Assembly: GCF_000312025.1 (NCBI RefSeq) | Contig: NZ_HE978593.1 | Location: 407,133-448,558 of the forward strand | Length of the DNA stretch: 41,426 nucleotides | Direction of reading: 5' to 3' | Source: Peptoniphilus timonensis JC401 | GTDB taxonomy: Bacteria > Bacillota > Clostridia > Tissierellales > Peptoniphilaceae | Part shown: one piece after another, positions 19,033 to 30,848 of the stretch | Layout of the letters: the number at the start of each line of letters is the position of its first letter | How positions within the stretch are numbered: position 1 is the stretch's first letter | Notes under the pieces: generated by a model | What the model saw: only the letters and a program-made list of their open reading frames with translations | What the model was told of the DNA's origin: nothing | Databases searched by the model: none | Program-made: the position numbers and the translations under genes

Positions 19033-19353
19033 CTTAGTTCTAAAATGATATAATAAATTATAAGATGCTTATTGATTAACCTATTCCCACATACGAGGCT
19101 TTTTAAAAAAATTAAATTTTATCCATACCGACCACTCAAGCCATGTGGAATTAGTCGCTATCCTTGAGAAAAATAAATAATTGTTTATAAGGATTAAAAA
19201 TAAATATTTAATTTTAAATGCCTTAATTTAGAAAGTTTGAAAATTTTAGAATTTTACTAATAAAATAAATCATAACTATAATGATACTAGAGATATGTGA
19301 AACTAATAAAGTTGACTAAAGAAATTATAATAATTCTAAGAAAGAGGTTTTTT
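19033..19353. other. Spacer with a possible structured segment
   Basis: No gene is supported. Bases 19084-19170 are less A-rich than the rest and contain several short complementary pairs: CCACAT with ATGTGG, GGCTT with AAGCC, CTCAAG with CTTGAG. This could be an RNA structure or the remnant of a repeat. The rest is plain A+T-rich sequence running into the TetR gene's ribosome binding site (AAAGAGG). Confidence 0.3.
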
Positions 19354-19943
19354 ATGGCAAAAAACTATACTAGAAATTTGATAAGAAAAGAGTTTATAAA
19401 TCTTTTAAATAAAAAGAGTTTACATAATATAACTGTAACGGAGATAGCAAGGGAATGTAAGATAGAAAGAAAGACTTTTTATTATCATTATGAAAATTTA
19501 CCTCAATTGATTAAGGAAATTTTTGATGAAGAACTTGAAAAGGTAATTGAGGAGTTCAATGAGACCTTATCATGGGAAGAGAGTTTTATTTTAGCTGCTA
19601 AGTTTATTTTAGATAATAAAAAAGTTGTAAAGCACATGTATGAATCTGATTATAAGATTGAATTGGAAAAATATATTTTTCTATTTCAGGAGAAATAATG
19701 AGGAAATATGTAAGAAGAGTTGCTGTGGATACTAAGGCAAAGGAAATTGATATAAAACTAATTGCTTATTTTTATCAATGTGCTCTAAGTTCTTCTTTGA
19801 TTCAATGGGTAGCGACTGACATGAAGACAGATCCAAAGGCTATTGCACGCAGAATAGGAGAGCTAATGGACGGTAATATTTTGTTATCTTTAAAGAGAAG
19901 TGAGAATCTAAAAGAGTTTACCCAAAACTTTGATGTTGGGTAA
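19354..19943 (+). pseudogene. TetR/AcrR-family regulator, frameshifted
   Basis: The start ATG at 19354 has AAAGAGG upstream; an in-frame ATG at 19297 is less likely. The N-terminal helix-turn-helix is clear (ITVTEIARECKIERKTFYYHYEN, residues about 29-51). One T appears to be missing from T5 (19676-19680), after which the other frame continues IFSISGEIMRKYVRR to the C-terminal FTQNFDVG and TAA at 19941-19943, for about 196 aa. The C-terminal part resembles the TetR_C_8/DhaS-like ligand-binding domain. The oleate hydratase gene follows 98 bases downstream with a palindromic site between them, so it is the probable repressor of that gene. Confidence 0.78.
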
Positions 19944-20041: not shown

Positions 20042-21834
20042 ATGGAACTTAAAACTCATGATAAAAGACTTAAATTAACTAATGGAGATTTTCAAAGATT
20101 AGTTAAGGCTAGAAAACCAGAAGGTATTGAAGAAAAATCTGCATATCTAGTTGGAACTGGAATTGCAGCACTTACTGCAGCTTGTTTCTTAATTAGAGAT
20201 GCTCACATGGAAGGTAAAAAAATTACTTTCTTAGAACAATTAGATATTCCTGGTGGTTCACTTGACGGTGAATACATGGACACTAGAGGATATGTTGCTC
20301 GTGGTGGTAGAGAAACTGGGGCTCACTTCGAATGTCTATGGGATATTTGGAGTTCTATCCCAAGCTTAGAAGACCCAGAAATGAGTGTTTTAGACGATTA
20401 TTTCTACACTAACTACGACGATCCAAACTTTAGTAATTGTCGTATTACTCACAAACAAGGTGAAAGATATGATGATGGTAAATTTAATCTTACTCAAGAT
20501 CAAGTTAAAGAAATTGCAGAATTATGCATGACTCAAGATGAAAAGCTTGAAGACAAAGCTATTGAAGATATTTTTTCAGATGGTCTTCTAAATTCGGATT
20601 TCTGGACACTTTGGAGAACAATGTTTGCTTTTGAAAATTGGCACTCTGCTCTTGAAATGAAATTATATTTAAATCGTTTCATCCACCACGTTGGAGGACT
20701 TACAAATTTATCTGCCCTTAGATTTACAAGATATGACCAATACAATTCAATTGTAAAACCTATGGTTAAATATCTTGAAAATCACGGCTGTAAATTCCAA
20801 TATAATATTAAGGTAACTGATGTTGATTTTGATATTTCAGAAAATAAAAAGGTTGCTACAAAAATATTGCTGAAGATAAAGATGGAAATGATAAGTCAAT
20901 TGATTTGACAGAAAATGATTTATTATTCATTACAAATGGTTCTATGACTGAAAATTCTAGTTATGGAGATGACAACACAGCAGCTGAACTTTCAGATGAA
21001 CAAAGTGGTTGTTGGGAAATGTGGAAAAATATTGCTAAAAAATCTGATGATTTTGGACATCCAGAAGTTTTCTGTTCTGATGTTGAAAAGAGTAACTGGG
21101 AATCTTGTACAGTAACTTGTCACGATGAATCCGTTCCAAAATATATTGAAAAGATTACAAAGAGAAGCCCTTATGGTGGAAAAACTGTAACAGGTGGTAT
21201 TGTAACTTGTGTTGATTCAAGCTGGTTAATGTCTTGGACAATTAATAGACAAGGACAATATCCAGAACAACCTGAAAATGATGTTGCTGTATGGGTTTAT
21301 GGTCTATTCACAGATGTAGAAGGTGACTTCATCAAGAAGAAAATGAGAGATTGTACTGGTAAAGAAATTACAAAAGAATGGTTATTCCACATTGGCGTAC
21401 CAGTAAATGAAATTGATAAACTTGCAGAAACTTGTACAGCAGTACCAGTTATGATGCCTTATATCACATCTCAATTTATGCCTAGAAAATCTGGAGATAG
21501 ACCATATGTTGTTCCAAAGGGTGGAGTAAACTTTGCTTTTCTAGGACAATTTGCTGAAACTTTAGACGATCCAGGAAGAGATACAGTATTCACAACAGAA
21601 TACTCAGGAAGAACAGCTATGGAAGCAGTTTATGTTCTTTGTGGAGTTGAAAAAGCTGTACCAGAAGTTTTTGCTTCAAGATATGATTTAAGATATCTCC
21701 TAAATGGAATGGTTGCACTATCAGATGGCAAAAAACCTGAACTTCCACTTAGTCCACTACAAAAGATGAAAGTTGCAAAACTTATAAAAGGCACAGATAT
21801 AGAAGAAATGTTAAAAGAATTTCATATAATTTAA
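20042..21834 (+). pseudogene. ohyA: Oleate hydratase, frameshifted
   Basis: FAD-dependent enzyme that adds water to the cis-9 double bond of oleic and related fatty acids. Commensal and pathogenic bacteria are thought to use it against host unsaturated fatty acids. The first frame (288 aa) has the dinucleotide fold VGTGIAALTAACFLIRD, the flexible FAD-loop motif RGGRETGAHFECLWDIW, and FENWHSALEMKLYLNRFIHH. Adding one A to A5 (20860-20864) joins it to the second frame (ENDLLFITNGSMTENSSYGD to KEFHII), giving about 597 aa, normal for the family. Start ATG with AAGGAGGATGTT upstream. The join is seamless and both halves are highly conserved, so a base-calling error is as likely as inactivation. 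Confidence 0.93.
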
Positions 21835-21867: not shown

Positions 21868-21896
21868 GGGACGGTTTAATTATCGTCCCTTTTTTA
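21868..21896 (+). terminator. Rho-independent terminator after oleate hydratase
   Basis: GGGACG pairs with CGTCCC around ten bases, followed by a T run. Confidence 0.85.
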
Positions 21897-21921: not shown

Positions 21922-23999
21922 ATGAATAAAACAACTTGAATAATCAAGCTATACCTACTTTGGATGAAATTCAAAAAGTCTATGAAGATGTTTTGAGAAG
22001 CAAAGCATCAGAAGAAAATGAATCCAATCTAGAATCAGGAGAATTTTTTAAAACTTTTAGGAAATATGAAAAACTAAATAAAAAAACGAATAAAGAAAGT
22101 TCAATATTAAAAAAGTATGAAGATTATTTAAAATACGAGAAAAATAAACAAAAAAAGATTATTGAAGAATTAGAAAATTTAATTGAATATGAAAATTTTT
22201 TCTTAGAATACGAAAGAAATCTAAGTCAAAGGAATTATAAGAGTAATTTTGCTGGAAGTAATCCTGCCACAAGATATAGAATCAATAAAATTAATGAATA
22301 TTCTAGAAAATTGAAAGAAATTATAAATTCATCTCCTGAAGCTTGGGAATTTTATTATCAAAGACAGTTAATGAGAGATATAGAAACTGGATATAACAAG
22401 GGTCTAGTTGAAGTGAAATATGTTGTTGATGCGAAGAAAAAGATAATTTCATCATTAAAACAAGGGACTCCAGTATATATAATTGGGCACTTGGGAAGTG
22501 GAAAAACACAGATAGCAAGAGAAGCAGCAATGGAGTTTACTATAGAAAATATTATTCAAGAAGAATTAGAAGACGATTTAGAAAAATGGTTTTTAAAAAA
22601 TAAAAATGCAAGTGAAGATGAAGCTATATATAAGTTTAGGGAATTAAGAGAAAATAAGAGAAATTATTATAAAAATATTTTAAAATCTGGAAATCAAGAA
22701 GAAAGAGAAAATATCTATCCATATTTTATTTCTGGCTCTTACAATTTAACTTATGAAGATATGTTTGTAGAAAAGACTTTATCTTTAGAAAAAGCTTCTT
22801 CTAGAGAAAGTAACATAGACTTAATAGATAAGGTTGTGGATCAATATTTTACTTGGACAAAATCTCATGAAAAAGAATTAGAAAAAATGAATCCACAAAA
22901 ACAAGATTTAATAAAAAGTAAGCTTTGGGATAGTATATCTGAAATTTTTATCGCTAGAAATACAACTTATGGAACAGTGGTTAAAAAGATAGAAAGAGAA
23001 ATATTACTAGCTGTAAAAAAGGGAAGACCTGTTATTATAGATGAGCTTAACACTATAGCTATGCAAAATTTAATAGGTTTAAATGATATTTTACAAAGTA
23101 AGATTGGATCTTATGCTTATGTTACTGGAGTTGGTTCGGTAAAAATAAAAAAAGGTTTTGGTCTTATTGGTACAGGGAATCTTTCAACTGATTCTGTAAG
23201 TTATGAAGCAACCAATGATTTCAATCCAGCTTTTAAATCTCGTTTTCAAACAATAGAATATAATTATGTAAATCAAAACACTATTGGATCCTTAAAGAAT
23301 CAAAAGGATAATAAAGAGAATGAACTCTTTAGAATAATATTAGTTAGACTTGCGGATAATAATGGGAATTTACACATTCCAACGCCTACAAAAACTCTAG
23401 AAGAACTTTTTAGATTGGCACAACTTTCAAGAATAACTCAAGAAGTCTTCATGGGAAAACTAATATCTGATGAAAATAAAAAGTTATCTCAAGATTCACC
23501 AGAATTAAAAGAATCTGTTTTGTCACTGAGAAATATTTTAAGAGTATTAGATAATTGGAATTTAGGAGAAGAAAAAGATTTAAGTATGGCTTTATGGGAC
23601 GGGTTTATTAGTTCTATTACAGAGCCAAAAGATCAAGCATACATTTTTTCCCAAGCTCTGAGATTTGGATTTTTTAAAGAATCTGATGGCTGGAAGATAA
23701 ACAATGAAAATCTTGGAAAAGTTACTCTTGAATATGATGAAATAAGAACAAGACCTTATGAATACACAAGGGGAGAAACAGAAAGTTTAAGTTATCTAGA
23801 TTTAATAAAAATATTATTTGGTCCAAGTCCTCAAAGAAAAGAAGTGCCAGAGAATCTTAAAAGTTTTTTAGAAGAAATTGATAAAGAAGATAAAATTTCT
23901 TTGGAAGAATATGAAGAATTTGATAAAAGATTAAATCAGCTAGAATACTCTAAATTTTTTCTGGAGTATTTAGAAGATATGGAAAAAAGTAAAAAATGA
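21922..23999 (+). CDS. MoxR-type AAA+ ATPase
   Basis: About 690 aa. Walker A GHLGSGKTQ (about residue 183 from the TTG at 21936), Walker B PVIIDELNTI (about 366-375), a sensor-1-like GLIGTGN (about 408) and NPAFKSRF, the arginine-finger region. The N-terminal 150 residues are charged helix or coiled coil, and the C-terminal lid region is helical. MoxR ATPases work with VWA proteins as chaperone-like remodelling machines (family knowledge); the VWA partner is encoded at 25212. A good ribosome binding site (AAAGGAG) serves ATG 21922, whose frame hits TGA after five codons. One extra A in A4 (21928-21931) would give MNKNNLNNQAIPTLDE and join the main frame. Otherwise TTG 21936 is the start. The 3' end overlaps the next gene as ATGA. 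Confidence 0.85.
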
Positions 24000-25201
24000 A
24001 ATTCTCTATAAATATAAATGAATTTAAAGAAAATTTAATAAAATTAAGAAAAGATTTAAATGAGAGTTTAGAAAAGGGTAATTTAGAAGAAGCTTTTGAA
24101 GATAAATTATTAGCAATTGAAGAAAATGAAAATATAATTTTGAAGGAACTTTTATCTTATTATAGGTTATATGCTCCAGATTTATATGAAACAAAAATAA
24201 ATAATTCTCCTATAGAAATAGAGGGAACTTTTAAGCCTGAAAGTTATTTGAAATCTTATTTAAAGATAAAAAAAGATATATTTTTCTTTTGTGAATCAAA
24301 TCAAAAATCTTTTTTTGGGAGATTTTTAGACGAAGATAAATCTAAGCTAGAATTAAGTTCTCCTATAAAAAATTTTAACAAATTAATAATTTTTTGCTAT
24401 CAAATAAATGAAGATAAATTTTTAGTTTTTACTGTAAGTGGAGAAATATTTATTTTTTCATGCAAAAATAGTGAGGATTTCTTTGAGAATATTAATTCTT
24501 TAAAAATCAATAAAGTAGAAACAAAATTCAAAGGTTTTGAAAATATTATTAATTTATCAGATAAAAAATTTTTATGTCAATTAGGAAGGAATCACTTATT
24601 AATATTAGGATTTAATGATGACTATTCTAAAGTCAAAGTTTTAAATCAAATTAAATTATCTATTATAAAAGCAGAAATTAGTTCGTTGATTAAAATTTCT
24701 AATTCTAAATTTGCAATTGCAACAAGTGATGGAAATTTTTTAGAGGCAAATTTTATTGATAAGGAAATCAAAATTGAGGTCAATAAAAGTATTTTTGAAG
24801 GTCGAATTGAGAAATTAGCTCTTCTTGAAAATGAAAATTTAGATAAAAATATATGCGTAATTTTAGGAGAAAGTGGAAAGTTTGCACTTTATGATTTAGA
24901 AAAGAAAGAAGTAATAAATTTAGAAAAAGAAAAAATTAAAGGAAATTTATTTAATATTTCATCAAAAAATGGAAGTGCTCTTATTCTTACAGAAGATGGA
25001 TTTGTATATTTATTGGAAGAAAATATGGGAGAGTGGAAATTAAATTCTAAAGTTTTTCTGTCTGAACTATTTTTAATAAATCTCATACCAATAGAATCAT
25101 CAAATTTTTTATCTGTGGATTTTAATGGCAATTTTTCAATTTTAAATATTGATAGACTTGATTCTTTAGATAAACTGAAAAGAATTAGTTTATATGACTA
25201 G
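23996..25201 (+). CDS. Beta-propeller-like protein of the MoxR/VWA operon
   Basis: 401 aa with no recognised catalytic motif. About 75 helical residues lead into a beta-rich region in which a motif recurs six or so times at 40-60 residue spacing: hydrophobic strand, turn with G or N, hydrophobic strand (FLVFTVSGEIFIFSC, KFAIATSDGNFLEANF, GSALILTEDGFVYLLEE, NFLSVDFNGNFSILNI). This is the look of a divergent WD40/PQQ-like propeller. No signal peptide, so it is cytoplasmic. It starts within the ATPase stop (ATGA) and ends on the ribosome binding site of the VWA gene. A scaffold or substrate adaptor for the ATPase-VWA pair is a reasonable inference. Confidence 0.7.
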   Translation: MKFSININEFKENLIKLRKDLNESLEKGNLEEAFEDKLLAIEENENIILKELLSYYRLYAPDLYETKINNSPIEIEGTFKPESYLKSYLKIKKDIFFFCESNQKSFFGRFLDEDKSKLELSSPIKNFNKLIIFCYQINEDKFLVFTVSGEIFIFSCKNSEDFFENINSLKINKVETKFKGFENIINLSDKKFLCQLGRNHLLILGFNDDYSKVKVLNQIKLSIIKAEISSLIKISNSKFAIATSDGNFLEANFIDKEIKIEVNKSIFEGRIEKLALLENENLDKNICVILGESGKFALYDLEKKEVINLEKEKIKGNLFNISSKNGSALILTEDGFVYLLEENMGEWKLNSKVFLSELFLINLIPIESSNFLSVDFNGNFSILNIDRLDSLDKLKRISLYD

Positions 25202-25211
25202 GAGGAAAGAA

Positions 25212-27134
25212 ATGTTTGGATTAAGTAAAGAATCTTTAGATGAAAACAGTATAAAAAAAGAAGCTGAAGAAAATCTAAAGATATTTTTAGAAAATCATAA
25301 ACAATCTCTCGCAACCTTTACTAGGGATCAGAGCCTCAGATATATTAGATCTAAGAGTTTAGAAAAATTTTCTCTTAAAGCAAGTGAATCTATTTTGTAT
25401 CTTCCACTAGCTACTTTTGTGGAAGATGATTTAAATAATAATGAGGTTTTATGGCACATATATAATGAGTTAGCTTTATATCCAGATTGGAAGAAAAATC
25501 CTAAATATTATTTAGATAGAGATATTACGTGGAAAAAAGAAATTGATGAAATTACTTATATTATTTCAAAAAAAACTAATGAACTATTAGATGATGATAA
25601 TAAAATTGATATAAAAACTATAAGAGAATATGTAAAAAGTGAAATTTTAGATTTTTTATTTGAAATAGATAAATATACAGCTTTTCTAAGAGTTCTAGAA
25701 AGCTGTCCTGTTTACAGAGATGAAGAAGAAAAAGAAAAAATTATAAATTATATGAGAGAAAAAATTGACCCTGAAGAAATCTTTTCTTCATTAGCTCACA
25801 AGGGATTCTCAGAAAGTTTTTTGATTTGGAATATTTATAGTGAAAATGAAAGTTTAGTTTCTGAAATAGAAGGGAAATTTGATACTAAAATTTTTTCACA
25901 GTCTATCTATAAATTTTTAACTAAAGAATTAATAAAAGAAATCAATGAAGATGAAGGTATAAGAAGGAGAGATCCTCTTATAAAATCTTTTATTTACCCA
26001 AGTTTTAAAAAATATTGGCTAGAAGAAATCGACTCCATGGGAACAAGTGAAAGCAGTGGAGAAGAAGGAAAAAAATTTTTTGAAGAAAGTAAAAAAGAAA
26101 AATCTTCCAATAAAATTGAGTCTACAAGAAAAGATGTGGAAGAAACACTAGAAGAAATTCTAAATCAAGAAATTAATAACATGAACGCTATTGGAGAATT
26201 TGATAAAAAAGATTTGGAATCTTATGGTGTTAATGAGAAGGATCTAGAGCTATTTAATTTTTATGTAAATAAGACAAACAAACAAAGAAAAGAAATGGGA
26301 GAGTTTTGGAAAAAGTTAATAGGTTCTGCAAAAAAAGAAATTAATGTAAAAAGAAATAGACAGGCAAGGGGAAAACTAAATGTAAATGATTTAATATACA
26401 ATTACCCAGACTTTGTTGAAGCAGAACAAAAGGGGAATTATAAAGAACTTAAAATTTTTGATAAGAATTTTTTAGAATCTCATAACAAACTTTTGCCAGA
26501 AAAAATTGAAATATCTTTTTTAATAGATAATTCAGGATCTATGAATAAAGAGAAAATTGAAGCAACAAGAAAAACATTAGCAGCTACTCTTTTATCCATA
26601 AAAGACTTTAATAATTATTTGCAAATTGAGGCAAAAAAGACAAATCAAAAAATAGAAGTATTGACTGAAACGTGGTTTTTCGGAAAAAATCATTATAAAA
26701 TAAAAGACTTTAAAGACAAGAAGGATTTAGAGGAATCAAAAATTATATCTTCTATAGTAAAAGTTGATGCAAGTGATGGAACTACTGAGGATGCAGCTTG
26801 TCTTAGGGACTTATATAATAATATAGATGATGAGCAAAAAATGAGAATAAATTCTAAAAAAGAATACAAAATAATATTTGAAATTACAGACGGAGCTTCT
26901 ACTTTTCCTGGTTCAACAAAAGATATTGTAAGGGATTTAATCGAAGATGGAATAGAGATTTATGCAATTCAAATAGGAAAAATATCAAATATAGATACAA
27001 AAACCTTTAATTATATCTGGAATGATTCTTTTAAATATAAGCACGGAATCATTTTGGGAGAAGATATTCAAGAATTGACAAATGAACTTTTAAAATTAGT
27101 CAAAAAAAATATTGAATCAATTTTTCACAATTAA
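25212..27134 (+). CDS. VWA-domain (MIDAS) protein partner of the MoxR ATPase
   Basis: About 640 aa. ATG 25212 has AGGAGG at 25200-25205 directly after the previous stop, and is better than the in-frame ATG at 25194. The first 400 residues are helical and charged. A C-terminal von Willebrand A domain (about 430-640) has a complete metal site: DxSxS in SFLIDNSGSM (about 438), Thr in DGTTEDAACL (about 521) and Asp in EITDGAS (about 558). No signal peptide or membrane anchor, so it is cytoplasmic. Domain order (long helical N-terminus, C-terminal VWA) fits VWA partners of MoxR such as CoxE/YehP-like or RavA-ViaA-like pairs; the exact subfamily is unknown. Confidence 0.88.
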   Translation: MFGLSKESLDENSIKKEAEENLKIFLENHKQSLATFTRDQSLRYIRSKSLEKFSLKASESILYLPLATFVEDDLNNNEVLWHIYNELALYPDWKKNPKYYLDRDITWKKEIDEITYIISKKTNELLDDDNKIDIKTIREYVKSEILDFLFEIDKYTAFLRVLESCPVYRDEEEKEKIINYMREKIDPEEIFSSLAHKGFSESFLIWNIYSENESLVSEIEGKFDTKIFSQSIYKFLTKELIKEINEDEGIRRRDPLIKSFIYPSFKKYWLEEIDSMGTSESSGEEGKKFFEESKKEKSSNKIESTRKDVEETLEEILNQEINNMNAIGEFDKKDLESYGVNEKDLELFNFYVNKTNKQRKEMGEFWKKLIGSAKKEINVKRNRQARGKLNVNDLIYNYPDFVEAEQKGNYKELKIFDKNFLESHNKLLPEKIEISFLIDNSGSMNKEKIEATRKTLAATLLSIKDFNNYLQIEAKKTNQKIEVLTETWFFGKNHYKIKDFKDKKDLEESKIISSIVKVDASDGTTEDAACLRDLYNNIDDEQKMRINSKKEYKIIFEITDGASTFPGSTKDIVRDLIEDGIEIYAIQIGKISNIDTKTFNYIWNDSFKYKHGIILGEDIQELTNELLKLVKKNIESIFHN

Positions 27135-29355: not shown

Positions 29356-30822
29356 TTATCTTTTCTTTTTTATAGAACCAAGTATTCCTCTTGCAATTTC
29401 ACGACCAATACTTCTAGTAATTGTACCTAACATGGAATCTATGCCCTTGTCTACGTAAGATTTTTTATTTGCATGTTGTTTTCTTTCTTTTTCTAGTTCC
29501 TTTTCTCTTTTTGCTAACTCTTCTTCTCTCTCTTTTGCGATTTTCTCCCTCTCAAATCTTTCTTTTAAAATTTCATAAGCAGATTCTCTGTCATAAACAT
29601 CTTTGTATTTATTATAAAGATCTGAAGTCTCAACTAAATTTCTATATTCAAGATCACTAAGAGCATCAAAAGAAGAATGAGGAGCTAAAATCATTGATTT
29701 ATCAGCCACTGTTGGAGCTCCACTTTCATCAGCAAAAGAGACTATTGCTTCGCCAGTTCTCAAATTTATAATTGCTTCTTTTAAATCAATAGAATCATCT
29801 TGTCTAAAAGTATCGGCAACTGTTTTAATAGTTTTTAATTCTTTAGGTGAGAAAGCTCTTAATTGATGAATAATTCTATTGGATAGTTGTGAAGAAACTT
29901 CTTCAGGTATATCTAAAGGATCTTGTGTTATAAAGAAAACACCGACACCTTTACTCCTAATAAGTCTAACAACTTGAATAATTTTTTCCTTTAAAATGTT
30001 TGGCGTATTGTTAAAAAGTAAATGGGCTTCGTCAAAGAAAAACACTAATTTAGGCTTATCTAAGTCACCAACTTCAGGGAAAGTTTCATAAATTTCTGAT
30101 AACAAATATAACAACAACATTGAATATAAAAGTGGATTTGAAATTAGTTTATTGGCATTTATAATATTCACAAAACCCTTGCCTGTGGCATCAGTTCTTA
30201 ATAAATCATTTATATTAAGAGCAGGCTCTCCAAAAAACAATTCTCCACCAGCATCTTCAACATATAATAATTTTCTAGAAATTGCAGATAAACTTTGACT
30301 AGCTACATTGCCGTAGGTCTTGCTAATTTCATCACGATTTTCAGACACATAATTTATTAGTTCTTTTAAATCCTTTAGGTCAATTAGAAGAAGACCTTCG
30401 CTGTCAGCAACTTTAAAAATTATATTTAAGACTCCACTTTGTGTGTCATTTAAGCCCAATATATTTGATAACATTAATGGACCCATTTCAGAAACAGTCA
30501 CTCTAAGTGGGATTCCTTTTTCTCCATAAATATCCCATAAATTAACAGGATAATTTTTAAATTCAAAATCAGCTAATCCCAAAAAATTAAGCCTTTCTTG
30601 CAATTTTTCATTTATCTTTCCAGCCTTAGAAATATTAGCAAGATCGCCCTTTACATCAGCAAGAATAGTTGGAACTCCAGCATCTGATAAAGCTTCAGTT
30701 AAAACTTTTAAAGTCACTGTCTTACCAGTGCCGGTAGCTCCACTAATTAGACCATGTCTATTAATTTTATTTAAAAGAATATAATTTTCATTTTTTCCCT
30801 TGCCAATAAGAATTTTATCCAT
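29356..30822 (-). CDS. DUF853/HerA-like ATPase
   Basis: About 488 aa. The ATG at 30822 has AAAGGGGG upstream and is preferred to the in-frame ATG at 30840. Walker A GATGTGKTV (about residue 28), LADVKGDLANI, Walker B LVFFFDEAHLLF, and a sensor region FFITQDPLDIPEEVSSQL. These are the hallmarks of the DUF853/YjgR group of HerA-FtsK-type ATPases, whose cellular role is poorly defined (DNA translocation is assumed for the superfamily). A coiled coil rich in Glu, Lys and Arg (about 420-460) precedes a short basic C-terminus. It is transcribed towards the YkvI gene and diverges from the ATPase gene at 30915. Confidence 0.85.
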   Translation of the reverse strand: MDKILIGKGKNENYILLNKINRHGLISGATGTGKTVTLKVLTEALSDAGVPTILADVKGDLANISKAGKINEKLQERLNFLGLADFEFKNYPVNLWDIYGEKGIPLRVTVSEMGPLMLSNILGLNDTQSGVLNIIFKVADSEGLLLIDLKDLKELINYVSENRDEISKTYGNVASQSLSAISRKLLYVEDAGGELFFGEPALNINDLLRTDATGKGFVNIINANKLISNPLLYSMLLLYLLSEIYETFPEVGDLDKPKLVFFFDEAHLLFNNTPNILKEKIIQVVRLIRSKGVGVFFITQDPLDIPEEVSSQLSNRIIHQLRAFSPKELKTIKTVADTFRQDDSIDLKEAIINLRTGEAIVSFADESGAPTVADKSMILAPHSSFDALSDLEYRNLVETSDLYNKYKDVYDRESAYEILKERFEREKIAKEREEELAKREKELEKERKQHANKKSYVDKGIDSMLGTITRSIGREIARGILGSIKKKR

Positions 30823-30848
30823 AATAGCCCCCTTTATCATCTAAGATT

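Follow-up and report, generated by a model that had tools for sequence, protein, structure and literature searches.

What does a MoxR-type AAA+ ATPase act on when its gene is coupled to those of a beta-propeller protein and a von Willebrand factor A (VWA) protein? We address this question for such a three-gene unit, here called the trio, in Peptoniphilus timonensis JC401 (Tissierellales; Peptoniphilaceae). The trio lies in a window of 41,426 nucleotides, the whole stretch of DNA analysed (NCBI RefSeq assembly GCF_000312025.1, contig NZ_HE978593.1, positions 407,133 to 448,558 of the forward strand). We put at about one in two the probability that it is an enzyme-linked MoxR-VWA remodelling machine with the neighbouring oleate hydratase (OhyA) as its direct client. 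This reading is built on the observed gene content, the conserved gene order, structure predictions that give a propeller and a NorD/Rea1-like VWA protein, residues that are invariant in the ATPase and VWA proteins, and clade-wide linkage to OhyA. The trio is read as a remodeller of this kind because its VWA protein resembles Midasin/Rea1 and NorD, partners of AAA+ rings. OhyA is proposed as the client because known MoxR-VWA pairs act on the enzyme encoded beside them.

A conserved and coupled trio

The trio is real and translationally coupled. Its first gene encodes an AAA+ ATPase, its second a WD40-type beta-propeller, and its third a VWA protein whose metal-ion-dependent adhesion site (MIDAS) is complete. 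The open reading frames (ORFs) lie, tightly coupled, where an initial annotation of the sequence had placed them (Table 1). The ATGA junction between the ATPase and propeller genes is located at 23996-23999 as a 4-base overlap, and the AGGAGG of the VWA gene sits, as described, within the end of the propeller gene, at 25200-25205 across its stop codon. Relatives suggest ATG 25212 as the start of the VWA gene. The long ATPase frame, which opens with TTG 21936, stands as annotated; the ATG at 21922 does not, being out of frame and followed by a stop after five codons.

A scan of bacteria with ATPase patterns only, one genome per species (GTDB set), returned 47 loci. The VWA gene follows the ATPase gene in all 42 loci with downstream sequence, split into two pieces in four of them; the other five are not evaluable (two masked, three at contig ends). 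The propeller is present in 43 of 44 loci, as a separate gene in 41 and fused to the ATPase in two. In 26 of those 41 loci the ATPase and propeller genes share exactly 4 bases, and in 39 they overlap or abut (gap of at most 2 bases). The annotation had called for a neighbourhood survey, and in this one the genes co-occur far beyond chance: the MoxR ATPase, its VWA partner and a propeller as third component are conserved together as a trio.

Linkage to oleate hydratase

Absent from the initial account of the locus was the oleate hydratase next door, which the survey identifies as the constant partner of the trio. OhyA lies directly upstream, on the same strand, in 46 of the 47 ATPase loci, and in 45 no more than 300 bases separate the two genes; the linked locus outside that count, L110, has an ATPase frame broken near its start. 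The sole locus in the scan without an adjacent OhyA is L114, from a metagenome-assembled genome (G029). The neighbour upstream of the trio is a canonical OhyA: it matches PF06100 along its full length and has the active-site RGGRE segment, although the window's own copy has a broken frame. It is of clade I type, as in Staphylococcus aureus: the OhyA of a relative (L029) matches S. aureus OhyA 7kav at E 4.8e-212, with a similar C-terminal segment. Linked loci are found in Peptoniphilus and Anaerococcus (Peptoniphilaceae), Tissierella, Clostridium, Lachnospiraceae, Peptostreptococcus (Peptostreptococcaceae), Vagococcus and Erysipelothrix.

Counts by genome point the same way. Among 61 relatives, the ATPase is present in 8 of 24 genomes with a near full-length oleate hydratase and in none of the 37 others (p = 2.5e-4). 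Among 130 Peptoniphilaceae genomes, it is present in 16 of 44 with OhyA and in 1 of 86 without (p = 4.5e-8), where an ATPase means at least 400 aligned positions and G002, G005 and G531, whose matches are weak or to a distant paralogue, are not taken as OhyA carriers. OhyA adjoins the ATPase in 15 of the 17 ATPase-bearing genomes of this set. The 130-genome, 61-genome and 47-locus sets share members and are not independent (L068 is G543; L069, G012; L070, G025; L075, G006; L076, G011; L090, G056; L102, G533; L114, G029). The distant PF06100 paralogue (an ORF of about 508-520 amino acids) recurs in Peptoniphilus, for example at G012:C5:1645144-1645995, and is broken in G000.

In an ATPase tree, which drew long-branch warnings and holds two unlinked rows only, the 46 OhyA-linked copies fall on one side of a branch with 100/100 support, and the copies of L114 and of genome G548 fall on the other.

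The three proteins

The window ATPase matches PF07728 (AAA_5) at 26.2 bits against a cut-off of 22. Its N-terminal region is long, and about 175 residues separate Walker A from Walker B, a stretch that could hold a helix-2 insert of MoxR type. The Walker motifs are intact, as annotated: across 31 aligned ATPases, G184, G187, G189, K190 and T191 of Walker A and D369/E370 of Walker B are invariant, and so are N415, R436 and R532, presumably sensor and arginine-finger residues. A sequence search of the PDB with the ATPase profile gave no useful match.

The MIDAS of the VWA protein is likewise complete, with D445, S447, S449, T531 and D566, the residues to which we assign this motif, invariant in 38 aligned proteins. 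In the predicted structure (predicted local distance difference test, pLDDT, 84.1; predicted template modelling score, pTM, 0.52) the VWA domain extends to the C terminus. Foldseek ranks 1 and 2 are NorD VWA chains. In VIA, which for the VWA and propeller models alike is a re-ranking of Foldseek's own list, the eight top rows are Rea1/MDN1 or NorD, with alignments starting at residues 342-352. Strands 380-390 and 422-431 lead into the MIDAS strand, and at the level of the fold (pTM 0.52) the model places a finger-like segment, residues about 346-431, beside the VWA core, as in NorD and Rea1. A sequence search of the PDB with the VWA profile returned generic VWA domains only, at E 0.008 or weaker. 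Genome G011 also carries a broken remnant of a second VWA gene (L037:8764-9733), on a contig other than that of its trio.

The middle protein had been described as propeller-like, and its AlphaFold2 model (pLDDT 92) agrees: a helical hairpin precedes a WD40-type beta-propeller with seven blades, counted from DSSP strands. It has no named family; Pfam yields weak WD40-like matches only (PF17005, E 9e-5, 22.4 bits, below the cut-off of 40). The structural search advised for this protein did not place its function: the Foldseek/VIA matches, 1,913 at E up to 0.001, are generic WD40 propellers, and because so many match, the fold reveals no function. Over 30 of the 47 loci (broken, cut, masked, fused and strongly divergent loci left out), oleate hydratase has a mean pairwise identity of 0.82, the ATPase 0.63, the VWA protein 0.58 and the propeller 0.40. 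The early suggestion of a substrate adaptor agrees with this faster divergence, and we infer the client role itself, reading the propeller as a fast-evolving client adaptor. The ATPase and propeller are fused in a single ORF in two uncultured Clostridiales (L107:5424-8555 and L106:2121-4811, the latter cut by a contig end). In two other loci (L111:9659-10321 and L113:9704-10357) the middle protein has shrunk to about 220 amino acids and retains its helical N-terminal part along with a stretch at the C-terminal end.

Proposed mechanism and known systems

The AAA+ protein would assemble as a ring, and the finger segment before the VWA core would plug its pore in the manner of NorQD. OhyA would be gripped by the VWA protein, through its MIDAS face, its helical N-terminal part or both, with the propeller assisting as client adaptor. 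On ATP hydrolysis the VWA protein would twist and open the OhyA dimer. The outcome might be the reloading of flavin adenine dinucleotide (FAD), the expulsion of product, or the freeing of OhyA from the membrane or from an inactive state. Oleate hydratase depends on FAD; recombinant preparations are often partly apo, and the FAD is said to depart so that product can exit (PMC8403116). S. aureus-like forms bind membranes (PMC11669549). A more specific version would give oleate hydratase, until now regarded as a self-sufficient flavoenzyme, a dedicated ATP-driven activase in part of Bacillota, in which a MoxR ring works with a propeller adaptor and a VWA lever like that of NorD to open the dimer, load or exchange FAD and release the hydroxy fatty acid; we consider it rather unlikely in this full form.

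The closest precedent is NorQD, which uses a finger placed in the pore of the ring, together with a lever that twists, to insert iron into nitric oxide reductase (PMC13036017, PMC9976466). NorQ-NorD and the trio share an AAA_5-matching AAA+ protein, a MIDAS VWA protein with an N-terminal part, a finger-like segment and a C-terminal VWA domain, and a place beside an enzyme gene. They differ in the client, a haem/iron enzyme for NorQ-NorD and, as proposed here, an FAD-containing hydratase for the trio; the trio also has an extra propeller gene and about 175 residues between the Walker motifs, and the N-terminal region of its VWA protein is unmatched. The Rubisco activase CbbQ-CbbO, compared by description alone, is again a MoxR-VWA machine serving an enzyme, and its finger-in-pore mode is presumed to be shared (PMC13036017), but it has no propeller. 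RavA-ViaA, also a MoxR-VWA pair, acts on fumarate reductase and, according to one group, on phospholipids (PMC10585395, PMC9489729); unlike the trio it has a LARA domain and a VAN fold, it has no propeller, and no OhyA linkage was seen.

The ternary systems of Kaur et al. 2020 also join MoxR, vWA and a beta-propeller (PMC7159879). Their propeller, however, is fused to the VWA protein and their P-loop is often GXXXTAKS, whereas the propeller of the trio is separate or fused to the ATPase, its VWA domain reaches the C terminus, and its P-loop reads GHLGSGKT (GHLGGGKT in L106/L107). Set beside those systems, the trio has an intact MIDAS and Bacillota hosts. The trio departs from two defining features of the published propeller-type systems, and we file it with the enzyme-linked MoxR-VWA machines, as which it would work. 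Pfam (E up to 1), PADLOC and NCBIfam, libraries that may be incomplete for these families, showed neither a VMAP, inactive STAND or FtsH third component nor an effector domain on the middle or VWA protein. Open-licence papers yielded none tying oleate hydratase to a MoxR or helper ATPase and, on MoxR + WD40 + VWA operons, work of the Aravind group only.

Regulation

In 33 of the 47 loci a TetR-type regulator gene precedes oleate hydratase by no more than 350 bases, and in three it lies elsewhere in the locus; this regulator might induce the unit under unsaturated fatty-acid stress. A strict terminator-like hairpin is found in 33 of 45 oleate hydratase-ATPase gaps against 0.3 expected from mononucleotide shuffles (L105, with a 9-base gap, and L110 left out, the window added), and behind the VWA gene in 6 of 41. 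It is probably the terminator of oleate hydratase, since OhyA genes without a trio have one too (within 110 bases after 14 of 36). Expression of the trio would in that case depend on read-through, at a reduced level, or on a promoter of its own, a separation in regulation that would suit a low-dose helper.

We looked for a TetR operator common to the regions upstream of OhyA and of the ATPase and did not demonstrate one. A TATATT-N3-AATATA palindrome, a possible regulator site, accompanies promoter-like hexamers by the ATPase start, at L078 346, L079 7923, L080 7924, L081 7923 and L082 7923; it lies just before the start region in the first three and at about the same place in the last two, and was not found before OhyA. 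A long, near-perfect conserved hairpin lies between TetR and oleate hydratase in L077, L079, L080, L082, L086, L090, L092, L094 and L112.

Gain and loss beside oleate hydratase

An oleate hydratase tree of 81 rows holds 45 of the 46 linked copies (one is cut by a contig end) and 36 unlinked ones, with the broken copy of the window omitted; it was built by a quick method and drew long-branch warnings. One group of 60 rows in it comprises 45 linked and 15 unlinked copies. Within it, 35 rows of a 36-row subgroup are linked, and a Peptoniphilus-Anaerococcus subgroup has 10 linked and 7 unlinked. Genome G016 retains an ATPase stub behind an intact oleate hydratase. In the window a 413-amino-acid gene and an acetyltransferase gene lie beyond the trio; OhyA is followed by the first of these (83-85% identical) in G003 and G009 and by the second in G010, so the trio comes and goes at one site.

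Weighing the readings

Several observations weigh against OhyA as the client. Two divergent complete trios have no adjacent OhyA: in G029 the enzyme is encoded on a different contig, G548 lacks any PF06100 match, and the founding trio may have had a different client. Conversely, 28 of the 44 OhyA-bearing Peptoniphilaceae genomes have no trio, and a broad sample of 398 Bacillota genomes holds the ATPase in the window's own only against full or nearly full-length OhyA (E below 1e-100) in 19, so that the trio is rare and dispensable for oleate hydratase. Recombinant OhyAs of other species are active without the trio genes (PMC8403116). Within the Peptoniphilus group, 10 linked and 7 unlinked copies are not set apart by any OhyA residue (201 of 300 label shuffles do equally well). 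Over the 30 loci compared, distances of OhyA and the trio proteins correlate at 0.76-0.84, against 0.97 within the trio. Lastly, the hairpin that parts OhyA from the trio in most loci leaves simple co-transcription unsupported.

The missing residue signature and the trio of a genome without OhyA would suit a target other than OhyA. The trio might act, as RavA-ViaA may, on fatty-acid-stressed membranes or membrane proteins, and stand beside OhyA because each responds to unsaturated fatty acids. Binding to specific phospholipids and a location at the inner membrane are reported for RavA and ViaA (PMC9489729), although another group did not see RavA bind lipid (PMC10585395). OhyA is itself a membrane-associated fatty-acid enzyme (PMC11669549). 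We nonetheless find this account doubtful: no membrane segment was noted in the trio, although no search was aimed at one, and a clade of 46 members held beside one enzyme would exceed the usual shared stress response. Linkage without function is less probable still. A trio mobilised by chance with OhyA and travelling along would fit its presence and absence at one site between OhyA and the flanking genes (G003, G009 and G010 against the window) and the imperfect correlation of distances, but adjacency holds in 46 of 46 members of the clade across Clostridia, Tissierellia, Bacilli and Erysipelotrichia while the other neighbours vary.

The initial annotation leaned towards biological conflict, and the first idea considered was a ternary MoxR-vWA defence system whose propeller would act as a sensor or scaffold. 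Such systems exist (PMC7159879), and the patchy distribution, repeated loss and fast-evolving third component of the trio would agree with one. So would the divergent trio of G548 (L210:5072-9814), which has RhuM, a YhcG PDDEXK nuclease, DUF4357 and GmrSD-type genes on one side; an adenylosuccinate synthetase adjoins it on the other, however, and elsewhere a metabolic enzyme is the constant partner. The trio proteins carry no effector domain, and PADLOC gave one weak match, of the ATPase to mad8 (E 0.0059). ATPase relatives, the only ones searched for (not the propeller or VWA protein), were absent from 72,556 plasmid and 50,697 phage records; in viral contigs, 31 stretches fit an ATPase pattern and none codes for a relative. 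We therefore set the lean towards conflict aside as very unlikely, and these ATPase searches also led us to reject the trio as mobile-element cargo. A small remainder of the probability is assigned to none of these readings.

Features of the window

Table 1. Features of the window around the trio
Feature	Position	Strand	Details
TetR-type regulator gene	19297..19943	+	two ORFs in window (19297-19698, 19698-19943)
Oleate hydratase (MCRA/OhyA)	20042..21834	+	two overlapping frames (20042-20908, 20905-21834); PF06100 E 2.8e-99 and 1.8e-101
Terminator-like hairpin with T run	21868..21895	+	between oleate hydratase and trio
MoxR-type AAA+ ATPase	21936..23999	+	687 amino acids as read; relatives about 692; AAA_5 match
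Third component, 401 amino acids	23996..25201	+	helical hairpin (predicted) residues 7-59, then WD40-type beta-propeller 67-386
VWA protein	25194..27134	+	N-terminal helical part, finger-like segment (predicted), C-terminal VWA domain with MIDAS; VWA E 1.6e-9

Three frame breaks fall within about 3 kb of the window: in TetR, in oleate hydratase and at the ATPase start (21922-21936). They are likely strain or assembly errors, because all three genes are intact in the same species (genome G543, contig L212, the same as L068), where TetR has 220 amino acids, oleate hydratase 597, the ATPase 692, the propeller 401 and the VWA protein 646. The window assembly is 87% complete. The intact relative of TetR matches TetR_C_8 at E 4.6e-20. 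Two genes downstream of the trio, at 29356-30840 on the minus strand, lies a HerA-like ATPase gene (PF05872, E 1.3e-190); the Peptoniphilus loci L068, L069 and L075 have a minus-strand ORF of the same size (492-495 amino acids), a likeness judged by size.

Implications

Oleate hydratase detoxifies unsaturated fatty acids, and may have a dedicated helper that has not been described. It converts host lipids to hydroxy fatty acids and is used in biocatalysis, where the partial loss of FAD is a nuisance (PMC8403116). If the trio loads or resets FAD, this would be a biochemically testable claim on purified proteins. Few clients are known for MoxR-VWA machines; OhyA is a concrete new candidate, and having the propeller as a subunit of its own could account for client choice in such machines. 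Were the trio a dedicated activase, it would be a MoxR-VWA machine serving a flavin hydratase, with a client-reading propeller as third subunit.

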